Source: an uncultured Cetobacterium sp. (lineage in GTDB: Bacteria > Fusobacteriota > Fusobacteriia > Fusobacteriales > Fusobacteriaceae). From it: 64,000 nt of DNA. Below, piece after piece: positions 17,171 through 60,466 of the stretch. Numbering within the stretch: the first letter of the stretch is position 1; each line of letters starts with the position of its first letter. Position numbers and translations under genes: made by a program. The stretch covers positions 1 through 64,000 of the forward strand of contig CAKOHT010000007.1 of NCBI GenBank assembly GCA_934085975.1, written 5' to 3'. The notes beneath the pieces are model-generated. The model did not search any database. It had not been told where the DNA came from and saw nothing but the letters and a program-made list of their open reading frames with translations.

Positions 17171-18373
17171 TCAAATATTTTTGAAATATTCGTATAGTTT
17201 TAAATTTTCATTAAATTTTACTTCCTCTATTATGTAGTTTTCACCATAATTTTCCATATCTTCATACAATTTTTTCAAAGTGATTACTTCAATACTCATA
17301 GTAAGTTTATAACTTTTTTCATCTGTTGTTTCACACTCAGTTGCCAAAATATACCCCATTGTTTTTAGCATACCCAAAATATCTCTAGTAAACTCCATTG
17401 GAATTCTTAGTTTTTCGGATATTTCCATAGCTGATATAGCCTTATCATTTTTTAGATAGTTTTCCATTAACAGCAGTAATACTTGCTCAGTTACCCTATA
17501 CTTCGAAATAAAATTTATATTTTTTATTATTCCAATTTTTCCTAAGTTATCTCTATTTTGTAAAATATATGAAAAATGTGCTCCCAGTAAAATTAAAAAC
17601 CATACAATTTTTAACCATATTAAAGAAAGTAAAAGAACTGAAAAACTTCCATAAATCTTATTATATGTCGTTATTATTATCTGTAATTTTACTAAAAGCA
17701 TATTACTTTGATTCAATAAAAATGAAACTATAAAGCTACTCCAAATAGTTGGCACTAGATTCACCTTTGTATTTGGTAAAACTGTATAAAAAAATATAAA
17801 AAATATCCATAGAGCCAAATACGGTGCAATTAGTTGTATAATATAGTCACTATAAAATATATCAATTTTTAAACTAGTCAATATGTTGGCTCCAATAATA
17901 CTCACCGGCAACATTAGAAAAACGATAAAGTAGTCACTTATTTTTCTGAAAACACCTCTCGTTCGTCTAATTCCCCATATACTATTTAACGCCTTCTCAA
18001 TCACAGAAAACATTAATACTATAACCCAGCCTAACGATAGAAATCCAACTCCTGCAATTATTCCACTTCTTGTATTTTGCAATAAATTCTGAGTTGTTTC
18101 TAATATAAGACTTACAGTTTCTTCGTTAAGTGGCGAACTTTCTGTAAGCTCTTTAAGGTAATAGTTATCTATTCCAAACCATCTTCCTATACTAAATGCT
18201 ATTGCTAAAATTGGAATAAAAGATAATGTTGTAAAGTAACATAAGGTGTTAGCCCACAAATTTGAATTTGATCTCTTATAATTTTCTAAAGCTCCTTTCA
18301 TTTGATTATAAAAGTGAGTCAATTGTAACTCATTAATATAATTTCTTATTTTATTTATAAATTTTAAAATCAT
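17171..18373 (-). CDS. YihY/BrkB-family membrane protein with C-terminal winged-helix-like domain
   Basis: 400 residues. Residues about 30-285 hold six membrane segments of the YihY/UPF0761 family (once called RNase BN): SNLWANTLCYFTTLSFIPILA and IWLKIVWFLILLGAHFSY are characteristic. Residues about 295-400 look like a soluble winged-helix domain (AISAMEISEKLRIPMEFTRDIL). The function is unknown, and the old RNase assignment of the family is not supported. The ATG follows GGAGG. It is flanked by the candidate small RNA upstream and hutX downstream. Confidence 0.82.
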   Translation of the reverse strand: MILKFINKIRNYINELQLTHFYNQMKGALENYKRSNSNLWANTLCYFTTLSFIPILAIAFSIGRWFGIDNYYLKELTESSPLNEETVSLILETTQNLLQNTRSGIIAGVGFLSLGWVIVLMFSVIEKALNSIWGIRRTRGVFRKISDYFIVFLMLPVSIIGANILTSLKIDIFYSDYIIQLIAPYLALWIFFIFFYTVLPNTKVNLVPTIWSSFIVSFLLNQSNMLLVKLQIIITTYNKIYGSFSVLLLSLIWLKIVWFLILLGAHFSYILQNRDNLGKIGIIKNINFISKYRVTEQVLLLLMENYLKNDKAISAMEISEKLRIPMEFTRDILGMLKTMGYILATECETTDEKSYKLTMSIEVITLKKLYEDMENYGENYIIEEVKFNENLKLYEYFKNI

Positions 18374-18429
18374 CTCTCATCCTCCCAATCTATTCTTTTT
18401 CAATTTTACCATATTTCCTTTAATTAAGA

Positions 18430-18497
18430 AAATTAAAAGAACCTCCAAATAAGAGGTTCTTTTAACACGGGGGGATTATTTATTTTTATAACACTTT
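18430..18497 (-). ncRNA. Candidate small RNA with a C-rich seed
   Basis: On the minus strand a promoter (18504-18531) is followed about 24 bases into the transcript by UAAUCCCCCCGUG, an unpaired C-rich stretch, and then by a 13-base-pair hairpin (arms 18433-18445 and 18453-18465, seven-base loop) ending in a short U tract. The transcript would be about 68 bases long. There is no reading frame. The layout (promoter, short single-stranded seed, terminator) is that of a bacterial trans-acting small RNA. The alternative is that the hairpin is only the murP terminator. Confidence 0.5.
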
Positions 18498-18503
18498 TTC
18501 TTT

Positions 18504-18531
18504 ATCATATCTTTTAGACACAAACTTTCAA
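18504..18531 (-). promoter_or_regulatory. Promoter of the candidate small RNA
   Basis: Minus strand: -35 TTGAAA (18531-18526), 16-base spacer, -10 TATGAT (18509-18504). It lies inside the gap after murP and points away from murP toward the hairpin, with no protein gene for 130 bases. Confidence 0.55.
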
Positions 18532-18568
18532 GAAAAAGTTTTGAAGTTTTTTTAATTTTTTATCCCTA

Positions 18569-19255
18569 TTATACAGCTTCTTCTATATCCGTTGGAATTC
18601 CAAAGAAATATGTTATTATAAATCCAGCTACATAAGATATTCCTAGTCCAATTATATAGTAAAGAATTTTTCCTGGTACAACTAATGGAATTGCCGTTAT
18701 CCCAGATGGTCCAAACGCTATTGTTTGAACTTTCATCGCTGCTAAAAATGCTCCACCTAATCCACCAGCTATTGAAGCTGTTACAAATGGTTTTCCGAGT
18801 GGAAGTGTCACTCCATAAAGCATCGGCTCTCCAATTCCCAATATTGCAACTGGCATAGCAGCTTTTATGACATCTCTTAATTTTTTATTATGCTTTGCTT
18901 TTATATAGATTGCTGCTGCTCCACCAATTTGCCCTCCACCTGCCATACAAAGAATTGGAAATAGTGAAATACTTCCAAATTGTGTCAGTTGAACCATATA
19001 AAACGGTATCAATCCATGATGTAACCCTACCATCAATAGGGATAGGAAAGATGAAGCTAATATAAACCCACCTATTATTGCTATTGGTCCTTCACTCATT
19101 ATAAAAAATGAAAATATTTTTATAATTACATCTGAAGCCACTCCTGAAAAAGGCATTATTATAAATACTGTTAATGTTCCTACTATCAATATCGCCAGTG
19201 TTGGCGTTATAATTGAATCCAAAAAATCTGGTATAATTTTTCTAAGCTGTTTCAA
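18569..19255 (-). CDS. murP: MurP C-terminal half (PTS EIIC), separated by a frameshift
   Basis: Encodes the rear part of the EIIC membrane domain of a glucose-superfamily PTS permease: LRKIIPDFLDSIITPT is an internal EIIC motif and is never a natural protein start. Later motifs GLHHGLIPFYMVQL and AILGIGEPMLYGVTLPLGKPF are intact. The only available start is a TTG without a proper site. It overlaps the upstream half by 14 bases in another frame. Read with the other half it gives a protein of about 464 residues, close to MurP. Confidence 0.8.
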   Translation of the reverse strand: MKQLRKIIPDFLDSIITPTLAILIVGTLTVFIIMPFSGVASDVIIKIFSFFIMSEGPIAIIGGFILASSFLSLLMVGLHHGLIPFYMVQLTQFGSISLFPILCMAGGGQIGGAAAIYIKAKHNKKLRDVIKAAMPVAILGIGEPMLYGVTLPLGKPFVTASIAGGLGGAFLAAMKVQTIAFGPSGITAIPLVVPGKILYYIIGLGISYVAGFIITYFFGIPTDIEEAV

Positions 19256-19961
19256 CCCAAGCTAGAATTGCAACACCCATTATCACCCCTATAATTCCAC
19301 CTTTTCCTGGAATTAAAATACTGCTCAGTGGTACTTCTGCATTATACAAACCTAAAGCTTTTGAAAATATATTTATATTTGAACTTATCGTTATCGCTCC
19401 AATAATTCCACCTAGAGCAGGTGTCGCTCCAAATTCATTAGCTGAGTTTACACCTACAAATATTGCAAAATATGCAAATAGTCCATTTCCTAAAGTTTGA
19501 AAAAAAGTTATCCACATAGGCATATCTTTTATTCCCTCTGCTGTATACACATTTTGAAAATATCCTGCTATTCCATTTAAAAGTCCCGCCCCTATTATAG
19601 CTGGAATTAATGGAATAAATATATTTGCTAATCTTCTTAATACTGAAGAGAATTTACTTTGCTTCGACTTTACACTCTCTTTTGTTTTTTTCCATTCATC
19701 ATTACTAGCTGATATTTCTCCACAAAGTTTTTTCATTTCATCTGCTATTTTTTTACTTTTTCCTGGTCCTACAACTACTTGAATAGTATCATCTTTTATT
19801 ACTTTTATAACTCCTGGAATTTCATCCAAACTTTTAAAATCTACTTTATCGTTATCCTTAACAGAAACTCTTACTCTTGTCATACAATTATTTATAACTA
19901 CTATATTATCTTTTGACCCCAATTTTTCAATTATCTCTCTTGCAATTGATTGATTATCCAT
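19242..19961 (-). CDS. murP: MurP N-terminal half (PTS EIIB and start of EIIC)
   Basis: PTS permease for N-acetylmuramic acid, which imports the sugar and phosphorylates it to MurNAc-6-phosphate. EIIB lies at about residues 1-85 with the phosphorylated Cys26 in NNCMTRVRV; the first membrane segments of EIIC follow (LANIFIPLIPAIIGAGLLNGI). The frame ends at GVAILAWVETA in mid-domain, where one surplus base (or two missing) separates it from the rest of EIIC. Neither EIIA nor the other half is fused, so EIIA must come from elsewhere. Assignment to MurNAc rests on the adjacent murQ and murR. Confidence 0.85.
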   Translation of the reverse strand: MDNQSIAREIIEKLGSKDNIVVINNCMTRVRVSVKDNDKVDFKSLDEIPGVIKVIKDDTIQVVVGPGKSKKIADEMKKLCGEISASNDEWKKTKESVKSKQSKFSSVLRRLANIFIPLIPAIIGAGLLNGIAGYFQNVYTAEGIKDMPMWITFFQTLGNGLFAYFAIFVGVNSANEFGATPALGGIIGAITISSNINIFSKALGLYNAEVPLSSILIPGKGGIIGVIMGVAILAWVETA

Positions 19962-21863: not shown

Positions 21864-23402
21864 CTATTTTATTTTCTTGATTGTATCTATGACAGTTCCA
21901 TCTCTATATTCAACAACTGCAACTATTTCATCTTCAAACTCAACATCATTTTCTTGTCCAGTCATTCCTCTAGCAATATCTCTTAACTCTTCTATCGTCT
22001 TTATCGGAAGTTTTGAATTTTTAAACTTTTCTAACAAACCTTTTCTTAAAGGATTTATAGCTATTCCCCTTTCTGTCACAAGAATGTCAACTGTTTCCCC
22101 TGGTGTAGTCAATGTTGTGACTTTATCTTTTACAACAGATATCCTTGAATTAACTAGTTGTGATACTATTATACATAATTTCGAACCTGCCGCAGTATCA
22201 GAGTGACCACCTGATCCTCCCATTATAACTCCATTAGATCCTGTTGTTACATTCACATTAAAGTTTGTATCAATCTCTGTTGCTCCCAAAATAACAACAT
22301 CTAATTTGTTTACAACGGATCCTTTGTTATTTGCATTCGCATACATTGATGCTGACATTGTTATATGTGCCGGATTTTCTTTAGCTGATTTTATAGCATC
22401 TAAATCAAAACATTGAACATCAAACAAAGCTTTGAACAACCCCTCTTTATACATATCGACAATATACCCTGTTATTCCTCCAGATGCAAAACTTCCACAA
22501 ATTTCCCTTTGTTTCATTATATCTTTTAACTGTGCCGCTACAGCTAGAGAAATCCCTCCTGCACCAGTTTGAAAACTCATACCATTTTTTAAATATCCAG
22601 ATTCTTCAATAAATTTCGCTGTTAAATCTGCCACTTTTAATCCAATTGGATTTTTAGTTATTTGGGTTGTTCCTGACACAATTCCTTTTGGATCTCCTAT
22701 TGCATCTACAACTAAAACATAATCCACTAAAGTTTGGTTTATTTCAATTGTTGTGTTTGGATATTCAACTAAGTTATCTGTTATGGCTACAACTATATTT
22801 GCTAACTCAGCATCTGTATGAGCATATCCTAATGCTCCACAAGCTGATTTTCCATCTACACCATTTATATTTCCATATTCATCACTCGTAGGAGCTGCCA
22901 TAAATGCAATATCAATAGTTCTCTCTCCTGATTCAAATATTCTTGCTCTTCCACCATGTGTATGCATTATAGCAGGTTTTTTTAACTTTCCTTGAGATAT
23001 AGCTTCAGCCACTGGTCCAGATATATACGCTGCATATATTTGAGTTACTACCTTATCTTCTATCATTTTTACTAAGCCTTTATGACAAGGGAATATCGAA
23101 CTTGCTGCTATCGTTACATCTTTATACCCTCTTTTCGCAATCTCCTCCATTACCATATTTAAAACAAAATCCCCATTTCTTAAGTGGTGATGAAATGAAA
23201 CTACCATCCCATCTTTCAATGGTAATTTATCCATTAATTTACTTAAATCCATATGTAATTTTGAATCTTGAGAAGATATAGTTTTAAATTTAAAATCCTT
23301 TTTTATCACTCCATCTTTATTTGAAAGATATCCTTTGTATTGTTTTACTTCTCCATACCCTTCTATAAATTCAGGAATTTCTCTTCCTAAAATATTTTTC
23401 AT
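21864..23402 (-). CDS. citF: Citrate/citramalate lyase alpha subunit (CoA-transferase)
   Basis: 512-residue CitF-type subunit, which transfers the acyl-carrier prosthetic group from its acetyl thioester to the substrate. The CoA-transferase fold is seen through MHTHGGRARIFESGER, GGSGGHSDTAAGSKL near residue 405 and PGETVDILVTERGIAINP near the C-terminus. The sequence does not separate citrate lyase from citramalate lyase; the position at the end of a glutamate mutase-methylaspartase operon points to citramalate, yielding acetate and pyruvate. The usual partners citC, citX and citG are not in this cluster. Confidence 0.92.
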   Translation of the reverse strand: MKNILGREIPEFIEGYGEVKQYKGYLSNKDGVIKKDFKFKTISSQDSKLHMDLSKLMDKLPLKDGMVVSFHHHLRNGDFVLNMVMEEIAKRGYKDVTIAASSIFPCHKGLVKMIEDKVVTQIYAAYISGPVAEAISQGKLKKPAIMHTHGGRARIFESGERTIDIAFMAAPTSDEYGNINGVDGKSACGALGYAHTDAELANIVVAITDNLVEYPNTTIEINQTLVDYVLVVDAIGDPKGIVSGTTQITKNPIGLKVADLTAKFIEESGYLKNGMSFQTGAGGISLAVAAQLKDIMKQREICGSFASGGITGYIVDMYKEGLFKALFDVQCFDLDAIKSAKENPAHITMSASMYANANNKGSVVNKLDVVILGATEIDTNFNVNVTTGSNGVIMGGSGGHSDTAAGSKLCIIVSQLVNSRISVVKDKVTTLTTPGETVDILVTERGIAINPLRKGLLEKFKNSKLPIKTIEELRDIARGMTGQENDVEFEDEIVAVVEYRDGTVIDTIKKIK

Positions 23403-49414: not shown

Positions 49415-49435
49415 AAAGGAATACAGGGGGATTAG

Positions 49436-51400
49436 ATGAAGAAATTTATAGTTCTTATTCTTATAGCAAACTTAGCTTTTGTTGGTAAATATTTTTATGA
49501 AAAAAAATTATCACACTCTCAAACTACTTTAATTAAACCAGTACATGAAATAAAAAAGGAGGATTTTTCTATGTTAAAAAATAGAGATACAATTGAACAA
49601 CAATATAAATGGGATTTAAGCGATATCTATCCCAATTGGGGCCAATGGGAAGGTGATTTAAGTAAACTTAAGGAACTTATGGCTAAAGTTCCTATGTACC
49701 AAGGCAAAATTTCTGAAAATCCCGAAACATTTGTCGAATTTATAGAACTTGAAGAGAAAATATCAAGACTCTTAGATAAGGTTTACTTATATCCATATTT
49801 ACAAAGAGATTTAGATTCAACTAATGAAATGGCTTCTGTTAAGCTTCAAGAGGTTGAAAGCATATATGCTAATTACTCGATTTCTTCCTCTTGGATTACG
49901 CCTGAGATATTAACTATTCCTAAAGAAACTATGATTACTTGGATCGATAGATACCCAAGTCTTGAGCCTAATAGATTTCCTTTGATGGAAACTTATAGAT
50001 TACAAGAACACGTTCTTTCTGCTGATAAAGAAAAATTACTATCGTACTTTGGGCAATATCTAAGTGTTCCGTCCGATATATACAGTGAACTATCTACTTC
50101 GGATATTAAATGGAACGAGGTTGAGCTATCTGATGGTAGCAAAAATACTGTTACCAATGGAGTCTACTCCAAAGTAATTTCAACCAATCGAAACCAAAAG
50201 GATAGAAAAAAAGTTTTTGAAGCACTCTATGATTCTTTCAACACTAATAAAAATACATATGCTTCAATCTATAAGAGTATTTTACAAAGAGACTTTGCTT
50301 CAGCTCAATCCAGAAATTATAAATCTAGCTTAGAAAAAGCTTTAGACCCTAAAAATATTCCCATAGATGTTTATATCTCACTAATTGAATCTACTAGAGA
50401 AAACACTGCTCCTCTAAAAAGATATGTTGCCTTGAGAAAAAAGGCCTTAAATTTACCTAGTTATCACTATTATGATAACTCCATAAATATTGTTGACTAC
50501 AACAAAGATTTTTCATATGAGGAAGCTAAGAATACCGTTTTAGAGTCTGTTAAGCCTTTAGGTGAAGAGTATTACAATGGATTAAACACAGCTTTAAGTG
50601 AAGGATGGTTGGATGTATATGAAACTCCCAACAAGAGAAGTGGTGCCTATTCTTTAAATATATATGACGTACACCCATATATGTTGCTTAATTATAACGG
50701 AACAATGGACGCTGTTTTTACTTTGGCTCATGAACTTGGTCATACTATGCACTCTATGCTATCTACTAAAAATCAACCATATGCTATTAGTAGCTACACT
50801 ATCTTTGTCGCTGAGGTAGCTTCAACATTTAATGAAAGATTGTTGCTTGATAGTATGTTAAAAAATACAACCGACCCAAAAGAGAGAATAGCTCTTATTG
50901 AACAAGCTATTGGTGGAATTGTCGGAACTTACTACATTCAATCTCTATTTGCTGACTACGAATATCAAGCTCACAAAATTGTAGAAAGTGGCGGAGCTAT
51001 AACTCCTGAAGTTTTAAATAATATCATGGAAAATTTGTTTAAAAATTACTTTGGACCTGAGTTGACTATGGATGAATTACAAAAAATTATTTGGACAAGA
51101 ATTCCTCATTTTTATAACTCTCCATACTACGTATATCAATATGCTACTAGTTTTGCTTCATCAGCAAATCTATATGATAGAATAACAAATATGAAATATA
51201 CACCTGAAGAGAGAGAAAATGCTAAACATGAATACCTTACTCTTTTAAAATCTGGTGGAAATGATCATCCTATGAACCAATTAAAAAAAGCTGGAGTGGA
51301 TTTAAGTAAAAAGGATGCTTTCAACGCTGTTGCTACAGAATTTAATAGACTCTTAGACCTTTTAGAAAAGGAATTAAAAAAAGAGAAAGGAGATATCTAA
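49436..51400 (+). CDS. pepF: Oligoendopeptidase F with N-terminal export/anchor segment
   Basis: M3B metallopeptidase that cleaves short peptides. The zinc site is HELGHTMH near residue 430, with the third Glu in EVASTFNE. From the upstream ATG the protein has 654 residues and begins MKKFIVLILIANLAFVGKYF, a signal peptide or membrane anchor unusual for PepF. A second ATG at 49571, preceded by AAGGAGG with an eight-base spacer, would give a normal cytosolic enzyme of 609 residues. Both ribosome binding sites look functional. It is followed two bases later by sppA. Confidence 0.92.
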   Translation: MKKFIVLILIANLAFVGKYFYEKKLSHSQTTLIKPVHEIKKEDFSMLKNRDTIEQQYKWDLSDIYPNWGQWEGDLSKLKELMAKVPMYQGKISENPETFVEFIELEEKISRLLDKVYLYPYLQRDLDSTNEMASVKLQEVESIYANYSISSSWITPEILTIPKETMITWIDRYPSLEPNRFPLMETYRLQEHVLSADKEKLLSYFGQYLSVPSDIYSELSTSDIKWNEVELSDGSKNTVTNGVYSKVISTNRNQKDRKKVFEALYDSFNTNKNTYASIYKSILQRDFASAQSRNYKSSLEKALDPKNIPIDVYISLIESTRENTAPLKRYVALRKKALNLPSYHYYDNSINIVDYNKDFSYEEAKNTVLESVKPLGEEYYNGLNTALSEGWLDVYETPNKRSGAYSLNIYDVHPYMLLNYNGTMDAVFTLAHELGHTMHSMLSTKNQPYAISSYTIFVAEVASTFNERLLLDSMLKNTTDPKERIALIEQAIGGIVGTYYIQSLFADYEYQAHKIVESGGAITPEVLNNIMENLFKNYFGPELTMDELQKIIWTRIPHFYNSPYYVYQYATSFASSANLYDRITNMKYTPEERENAKHEYLTLLKSGGNDHPMNQLKKAGVDLSKKDAFNAVATEFNRLLDLLEKELKKEKGDI

Positions 51401-58774: not shown

Positions 58775-60466
58775 ATGGATAAATTTATATTGGAAAACTA
58801 CAATAATTGGTTAGTATCCGATTATATCGATTTAAAGGACAGAGAGGATTTGAAAAGTATCCGAGGAGATGAAAAAGAAATTGAGGATAGGTTTTATACA
58901 AACCTTTCATTTGGAACTGGTGGAATGAGGGGGGTTAGAGGAATCGGTATCAATAGAATTAATAAATACACTATCCGAAAAGCAACTCAAGGACTTGCTA
59001 ACTACATCCTAGAATCTACTGGTGAAAAAGGAAAAAAAATGGGGGTTGCTATAGCTTACGATTGTAGAATTGGTTCTGAAGAGTACGCATTAAATGCTGC
59101 TCTGGTTTTAGCTGGAAATGGAATTAAAGCATATCTTTTTAAATCTCTTAGATCAACGCCTGAGCTTTCATTTGCTGTAAGAGAGCTAAAGTGTGTCGCT
59201 GGTATAGTGGTAACAGCGTCCCACAATCCACAAGAATATAACGGATATAAAGTTTACTGGAGTGATGGATGTCAAATTATTGAACCTCAAGCTAGTGGTG
59301 TTGTGGCTAATGTCAATGCCATCAATTCTTTTGATAAAATTAAGTTACTAACTAAAGAATGTGCTATTCAAGATGGACTTTTAGAATACATTTCTGAGGA
59401 TATCGATACTGAGTTTATTAAAGCGGTTAAAAAACAAATTATTCACAATGAAATTCCTGGTAAAGAAAACTTTAAAATTGTCTATTCACCATTACATGGA
59501 ACTGGTGGAAGACCAGTCAAAAGAGTTTTTGAAGAAACTGGATTTGAATCAGTCTATATAGTAGCTGAGCAAGAACAACCTGATGGAAATTTTCCAACTT
59601 GTTCATATGCCAATCCAGAGGATCCAGCAGTTTTTAAATTAAGTATAGAATTAGCAGACAAAGTTGGAGCGACACTATGTATGGCAAATGATCCTGACGC
59701 AGATAGAATAGGTGTAGCGGTAAAAAACGAAAAAGGAGAATGGATTTACCCAAATGGAAATCAGATTGGTCTTTTGCTAATGAACTATATTTTAGAGAAT
59801 AAAAAGAGTATTTCTAAAAATTCAGCAGTTGTATCAACTGTAGTTTCAACTCCAATGTTAGATGTTGTTGCTAAAGAGAAAGGTATAAAAATTTTTAGAA
59901 CTCTTACAGGTTTCAAATTTATTGGGGAAAAAATAAGAGAGTTCGAAGAGGGAAAATATGATGCAACATTTTTAATGGGATTTGAAGAATCGTATGGCTA
60001 TCTTGTGGGAACGCACGCAAGAGATAAAGACGCTGTTGTATCTACTCTATTAATAGCTGAAATGGCTGCCTATTACAATAGTATCGGTTCATCTATTCCA
60101 AAAGAATTAAAAAAATTATATGAAAAATTTGGTTATTATAAAGAAGGAATTATTGCTATTACTAAAAAAGGAAAAGACGGCGTAGAAGCTATTGCTAAAA
60201 TAATGTCAACTCTTAGAGCTAACGTTTCTGACTCCCTACTTGGAAAAAAAGTGGTATCCAAAAGAGATTTTAGCTTAGGATACGAAGGATTACCTAAATC
60301 TGATGTTATTCAATTTGTATTAGACGACAATACATATATTACAGCTAGACCTTCTGGAACAGAACCAAAAATAAAATATTACTTCTGTGTCGTTGGAAAA
60401 ACAGAAGATGAAGCAAATGAAAAATTAATAAAAACTATGGAGGATTTTCAAGCTTTTATTGATTAA
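58775..60466 (+). CDS. pgcA: Phosphoglucomutase/phosphomannomutase
   Basis: 563-residue alpha-D-phosphohexomutase. The active-site Ser loop is VTASHNPQEYNGYKVY, the Mg loop is NDPDADRIGVAV, the sugar loop GFEESYGYLVG and the phosphate-binding loop ARPSGTEPKIKYY. It interconverts glucose 6- and 1-phosphate, supplying GalU. The larger size fits the PgcA/Pgm2-like subgroup. Seventeen bases after groEL. Confidence 0.95.
   Translation: MDKFILENYNNWLVSDYIDLKDREDLKSIRGDEKEIEDRFYTNLSFGTGGMRGVRGIGINRINKYTIRKATQGLANYILESTGEKGKKMGVAIAYDCRIGSEEYALNAALVLAGNGIKAYLFKSLRSTPELSFAVRELKCVAGIVVTASHNPQEYNGYKVYWSDGCQIIEPQASGVVANVNAINSFDKIKLLTKECAIQDGLLEYISEDIDTEFIKAVKKQIIHNEIPGKENFKIVYSPLHGTGGRPVKRVFEETGFESVYIVAEQEQPDGNFPTCSYANPEDPAVFKLSIELADKVGATLCMANDPDADRIGVAVKNEKGEWIYPNGNQIGLLLMNYILENKKSISKNSAVVSTVVSTPMLDVVAKEKGIKIFRTLTGFKFIGEKIREFEEGKYDATFLMGFEESYGYLVGTHARDKDAVVSTLLIAEMAAYYNSIGSSIPKELKKLYEKFGYYKEGIIAITKKGKDGVEAIAKIMSTLRANVSDSLLGKKVVSKRDFSLGYEGLPKSDVIQFVLDDNTYITARPSGTEPKIKYYFCVVGKTEDEANEKLIKTMEDFQAFID

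Follow-up and report, generated by a model that had tools for sequence, protein, structure and literature searches.

A multicopy family of candidate sigma-E type small RNA genes carrying cytosine tracts in Cetobacterium

The small RNAs (sRNAs) that appear closest in behaviour to the family described here are FoxI and FoxJ of Fusobacterium nucleatum and LhrC of Listeria. In the available part of the report on them, FoxI and FoxJ are described as C-stretch sRNAs that depend on sigma-E and repress FomA, and foxI, foxJ, and rpoE have -10 and -35 motifs in common (PMC11005410). FoxJ is described there as an RNA of ~156 nt that is encoded upstream of ylmH and carries its C-stretch in a hairpin loop, and foxI and foxJ as two single-copy genes (PMC11005410). 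LhrC of Listeria monocytogenes is, in the accessible sections of its report, present in five copies, carries redundant UCCC motifs in a single-stranded stretch and in loops, and belongs to the envelope-stress response (PMC4132741). A literature search, which covered the F. nucleatum sRNA papers in part, found no earlier description of the Cetobacterium family.

The window analyzed here is a stretch of 64,000 nucleotides of DNA from an uncultured Cetobacterium sp. The original prediction placed an sRNA with a C-rich seed next to murP in this window. Comparison with related genomes strongly supports this core reading, while the sigma-70 type promoter that had been assigned to the RNA is replaced by one of the ECF type. 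The parts of the element and its neighbours are as follows.

18569-19255, minus strand: 3′ part of a PTS EIIC gene (murP; PF02378), the upstream neighbour in some relatives only
18533-18542, minus strand: -35 element AAAACTTTTT of an ECF sigma-E type promoter, the same in all 10 aligned rows
18514-18519, minus strand: -10 element GTCTAA, 13 bases 3′ of AAAACTTTTT (AACTT-N16-GTCTAA), identical in 10 of 10 aligned rows
18504-18531, minus strand: TTGAAA-16-TATGAT, the promoter originally proposed, judged not to be the main one
18428-18508, minus strand: predicted sRNA of ~80 nt, its 5′ end placed from the promoter
18469-18474, minus strand: C-tract of six Cs, the presumed seed (UAAUCCCCCCG)
18432-18466, minus strand: terminator hairpin (fold z -6.0; stem covariation in the family)
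~18432-18426, minus strand: T-rich tail after the hairpin
17171-18373, minus strand: YihY/BrkB family gene (PF03631, E 6.7e-38), the constant downstream neighbour, in the same order in 8 orthologous places

The sequence parts that the original prediction had named on the minus strand are all present: TTGAAA (18531-18526), 16 bases, TATGAT (18509-18504), and six Cs (18474-18469). A strong hairpin also exists, with 15 bp in the fold rather than the 13 counted before; its energy is -19 kcal/mol (z -6.0), and equal stability was reached by 0 of 200 shuffles. The gap between the flanking genes (18374-18568) is wider than the frame-free 113 bases described for it. The window copy has a single C-tract: its terminator loop is without a second one, and the same is true of its 8 orthologues. 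Rfam 15 gave no match at the gathering score in the window or in 10 loci with family copies. As for the neighbours, the YihY/BrkB protein has counterparts in three Cetobacterium metagenome assemblies, to which it is 88, 74, and 73% identical. murP is split into two overlapping reading frames (18569-19255 and 19242-19961, minus strand), the 3′ one of which matches the second half of the EIIC profile only; the gene may be broken, or the split may reflect a sequence error.

A DNA search of 98 Fusobacteriota genomes (each designated by G and a number) with the window element at E 0.001 gave matches in 22, which were full-length in eight (G001, G002, G003, G008, G009, G010, G011, and G013) and short and partial in the remaining ones. 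G008 contained a second full-length match, a paralogue with 68% identity, and the window, the 8 orthologues, and this paralogue make up the alignment of 10 rows. The six-C run is intact in 6 of the 8 orthologues, and UCUCCCC is found in G009 and G010. The element has kept its place next to YihY in all 8 genomes as in the window: one orthologous place in 9 sequences. The other side differs. murP lies upstream of the element in the window, G001, G009, G010, and G013, and is absent from this position in G002, G003, G008, and G011, where the upstream gene is the counterpart of the window gene at 21864-23402 (CoA-transferase-like by eye). Since the promoter, C-tract, and hairpin are all kept in these four genomes, the element is independent of murP. 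The original prediction had named as evidence against itself the loss of promoter and C-tract in relatives that keep the hairpin as the murP terminator; the opposite was found, in that the whole unit persists without murP.

The alignment also clarifies which promoter is likely to be used. AAAACTTTTT and GTCTAA, 13 bases apart, are invariant, and the window copy carries the promoter form of the family, AACTT-N15..17-GTC(T/A)A, at 18540-18514 on the minus strand. The TTGAAA of the proposed sigma-70 promoter, in contrast, occurs in 0 of the 8 orthologues, while its -10 box is represented by TATAAT in 7 of them and by TATAAG in the eighth. The sigma-70 promoter as originally drawn was set aside because its TTGAAA is present in the window alone; a second transcription start at the TATAAT-like box, kept in 7 of the 8 orthologues, is conceivable.

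The window element is one member of a family with a common layout: an ECF promoter, ~40 mostly A/U bases, UCCCCCC, and a terminator hairpin, usually with a second C-tract in its loop. In the family alignment of 34 copies, 97.8% of the cells in the terminator stem are paired and the covariation score is 0.328, each of which was reached by 0 of 500 shuffles; 6 of the 11 stem pairs are changed on both sides, a number reached by 15 of 500 shuffles. A covariance model (R1) was trained with the window-type orthologues left out and the G008 paralogue included. This model recovers the window element (18508-18427, 45.9 bits, E 6.1e-6; the next window match has 22.7 bits) and 8 of 8 orthologues. Because R1 finds these copies although it was trained without them, the window copy can be regarded as a member of the family.

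Over the 98 genomes, R1 gave 97 matches in 19 genomes, and the promoter was checked in 96 of them (all but the one in G046). It is present in 80 of the 96; several of the 16 without it look like chance terminators. Outside the training loci, it was found in 45 of 60 matches, where its frequency in 1.2 Mb of G013 predicts ~0.03; this test is not fully independent, since many of these matches are close kin of training copies. In 20 of the 80 promoter-bearing matches, the -10 element is the variant GTCAA. Promoter and C-tract occur together in 77 of the 96, and two C-tracts together with the promoter in 68; the second C-tract in the terminator loop is thus common but not universal in the family, and the window copy is among those that have none. 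Copies with promoter and C-tract number 15 in G010, 14 in G008, 9 each in G009 and G002, 8 in G013, 7 in G012, 5 each in G001 and G011, 2 in G003, and one each in G014, G015, and G051; these copy numbers may be off, as the completeness and contamination of the genomes are not given. The genes that follow the copies are of many kinds, and some copies have no gene after them in their own direction. The information content falls to background ~20 bases 5′ of the -35 element, beyond an A-rich stretch (75 upstream sequences), and directly after the T-run and one G (73 downstream sequences). The limits of conservation therefore lie at the promoter and the terminator, as expected for a transcription unit. 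This comparison across genomes shows the promoter, the C-tract, the terminator, the existence of the family, and its copy number.

Two further groups were observed. In one class, found in several genomes including G014 and G015 (loci L113, L116, L117, L135-L140, L145, and L147), the -10 box reads CGTCAAA, the 5′ part is longer, and TTTAATCCCCCC and a C-rich terminator loop stand at the end. Another, at L165-L171, L173, and L174 in other Fusobacteriota genomes, consists of longer predicted RNAs that share the promoter of the family and carry a tract of TTTTTCTCTCCCCCC or TTTTTTCTCCCCC, and might include foxI-like genes.

The promoter motif was also examined by pattern searches. AACTT-N16-GTCTAA alone gave 111 sites in 12 genomes as compared with 84 for the reversed control; it is the combination with the C-tract that carries the signal. 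AACTT-N16-GTCWAA-N25..55-TCCCCC gave 74 matches (66 distinct sites) in 21 of the 98 genomes, with 1 reversed-control match. When the gap was lengthened and four Cs sufficed, 62 matches were obtained, with 9 in the control. A looser promoter and C-tract pattern in 22 other genomes gave nothing above control (13 matches vs. 12), and a spacing scan of 1.2 Mb was too sparse to give a clear peak (5 sites for AACTT-N16 and 0 to 7 for other spacings).

Reading 40 regions around chosen promoter-motif sites beginning with AACTTTTT revealed 37 C-rich sRNA-like units and, in four genomes, an ECF sigma gene. The encoded protein has sigma-70 regions 2 and 4 (Pfam Sigma70_r2, E 2.2e-15; Sigma70_r4_2, E 1.4e-10), and an rpoE-like ECF protein was detected in 54 of the 98 genomes at E 1e-12. 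Of 30 ECF sigma gene loci that were read, 26 have AACTT-N15..18-GTC(T/A)A just upstream of the gene, and a 27th (G020) has GACTT instead of AACTT; a sigma-E type promoter in common with the rpoE-like gene, which is a FoxI/FoxJ trait, is thus also found for this family. Of the 21 genomes with the promoter and C-tract pattern, 19 carry the ECF gene, the exceptions, G003 and G016, being both small, and all 34 genomes from G066 to G099 have neither the gene nor the pattern. We infer that the promoter motif is read by this ECF sigma factor, in line with the -10 and -35 motifs common to foxI, foxJ, and rpoE in F. nucleatum. At L077 (1192-2393, minus strand), the ECF sigma gene is followed by genes for a protein of 108 residues that has a single hydrophobic stretch and looks anti-sigma-like by eye, and for one of 140 residues that begins with a signal-like stretch. 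Another promoter of the sigma-E type, AACTT-N17-GTCTAA, was seen at L093 (G009) and at G013:C1 (~1100773, minus strand); it precedes a similar non-C-rich stretch (…ATAGCCATCACACAGTTTC…) in both genomes and possibly drives another sigma-E dependent RNA.

The likely targets were considered with 1024 start regions from a 1.2-Mb G013 sample. Predicted pairing with the family seed is stronger for exported-like genes (difference -0.99 kcal/mol; p 1.3e-4 in a one-sided Mann-Whitney test). The corresponding bias is -0.87 kcal/mol for the window seed and -0.48 kcal/mol for the 16S-tail control, so that a generic control also favours exported genes. GGGG is mildly enriched at exported-like genes (odds 1.56, p 0.027), and no enrichment of GGGGG was found in the G013 start regions (p 0.39). 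With permuted A/U flanks, the real seed is equalled or surpassed in 23 of 100 trials by mean energy, in 6 by the share of strong duplexes, and in 16 by the exported bias, and the signal seems to be carried by the C-run, not by a longer seed. These results are weak evidence for targets: the bias to exported proteins is modest, and pairing is predicted without clear seed specificity.

In the window, the best duplex energy among the called start regions belongs to the gene starting at 58775. The leaders of DUF1499, the nitroreductase, and the galU-like gene, which had been proposed as pairing partners over shorter lengths, do rank second to fourth, but they simply contain G-rich ribosome binding sites. 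The main proposed partner, the pepF leader, belongs to an M3 peptidase gene that this ranking left out, as its start was missed by the simple gene caller.

49426-49434, plus strand: GGGGGATTA in the M3 peptidase leader, a candidate target; ATG at 49436

The nine-base site is present, at this position rather than at 49429-49437. Of 10 sequences, 4 retain it and 8 retain GGGGGATT; the leader is well conserved as a whole, and the proposed pairing is not singled out by this conservation. The gene itself (49436-51400, plus strand) encodes an M3 / oligopeptidase-F type peptidase that begins with the signal-peptide-like MKKFIVLILIANLAF; such a start is unusual for PepF.

Taken jointly, we consider it likely that the element is a stand-alone sRNA gene of the ECF sigma-E type and a member of a multicopy family, and that pairing with G-rich ribosome binding sites lowers translation. 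Transcription, dependence on sigma-E, repression, and targets are what we infer from the comparison. The gene would be transcribed by the Cetobacterium ECF envelope-stress (sigma-E type) sigma factor, and the window copy would be a single-C-tract member held at one chromosomal place. In response to envelope stress, this factor would drive both its own gene and the many sRNA copies. Every RNA would expose UCCCCCC in unpaired form, and in most copies the terminator loop is C-rich as well. Their C-tracts would pair with G-rich ribosome binding sites and reduce translation, probably mainly that of envelope proteins.

Other explanations can be weighed against the same evidence. A hairpin with a T-rich tail close behind murP makes a good intrinsic terminator, and the element might be merely the terminator of murP or of another upstream gene, with an incidental C-tract. 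This has almost no probability and was set aside: the unit is retained behind another gene in G002, G003, G008, and G011, where murP is absent, and promoter, C-tract, and hairpin recur together at many other places. Such recurrence, in many intergenic copies with an inverted repeat, is what a mobile or structural DNA repeat (REP- or MITE-like) would also give. That the family is such a repeat and not an RNA gene is highly improbable, because its conserved parts are a promoter, a C-tract, and a terminator with compensatory stem changes, and the window copy is found at one orthologous place in 9 sequences.

It is also very unlikely that the element serves the YihY/BrkB gene as a leader or attenuator, with conditional read-through of the hairpin from this promoter; the YihY gene is indeed next in 8 orthologous places, but family copies stand before varied genes or none in the same direction, and the hairpin is a strong terminator. 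Finally, the RNAs may be real and serve mainly as binding sites for a C-tract-binding protein rather than for pairing with mRNA. Short motifs repeated in unpaired places of many copies would suit this function, the A/U flanks contribute little to the predicted pairing, and F. nucleatum is said, in the available part of the report, to lack Hfq and ProQ, so that other partners are possible (PMC11005410). This explanation is nevertheless unlikely, as the C-stretches of FoxI and FoxJ are reported in the same text to be base-pairing seeds for fomA mRNA (PMC11005410).

The preferred reading, an sRNA gene acting by pairing, can be set beside the known systems as far as the available parts of their reports describe them. 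The family resembles FoxI and FoxJ in the phylum, in an ECF sigma-E type promoter that also precedes the sigma gene itself, and in a cytosine stretch as the likely seed; repression of envelope proteins would be a further likeness (PMC11005410). Unlike these two, the Cetobacterium RNAs are predicted to be ~80 nt long and occur in many copies, a comparison made by description and not by sequence. The window copy, unlike FoxJ, is located between murP and YihY and not upstream of ylmH. Among 50 loci out of the 85 genomes with a YlmH match, no sigma-E promoter and C-tract unit was recognized upstream of ylmH; loose matches there, considered as a FoxJ orthologue, were judged by eye to be coding or unrelated. 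With LhrC, the family shares several copies with redundant C-rich motifs, although the window copy itself has one motif only. LhrC differs in its nearly identical copies, its control by the LisRK two-component system, an extra stem-loop, and its phylum (PMC4132741), while the Cetobacterium family has an ECF promoter, up to 15 copies, and more divergence among them. The likeness to LhrC is regarded as one of design, without any claim to kinship. MicA, RybB, and MicL of enterobacteria have seeds other than that of the Cetobacterium family, and they are single-copy and Hfq-associated. What they would have in common with it is their place as the noncoding arm of a sigma-E envelope-stress response, as described in the accessible text (PMC11005410).

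The window element is thus well supported as a small RNA gene by sequence comparison, with a promoter other than the one proposed and an unexpectedly large family. This family joins control of the FoxI/FoxJ type with multiplicity of the LhrC type. FoxI and FoxJ showed, in the part of the report available, that the envelope-stress response has an sRNA arm outside Proteobacteria as well (PMC11005410), and a much larger family of this kind in a neighbouring genus raises the question of why one sRNA has been copied so often. It lets one ask how the copies diverge in the number of seeds, and it bears on pairing in a phylum whose best-studied member is reportedly without Hfq and ProQ. The combination of a sigma-E promoter, a C-tract, and a terminator provides a simple genomic signature by which such genes may be found.
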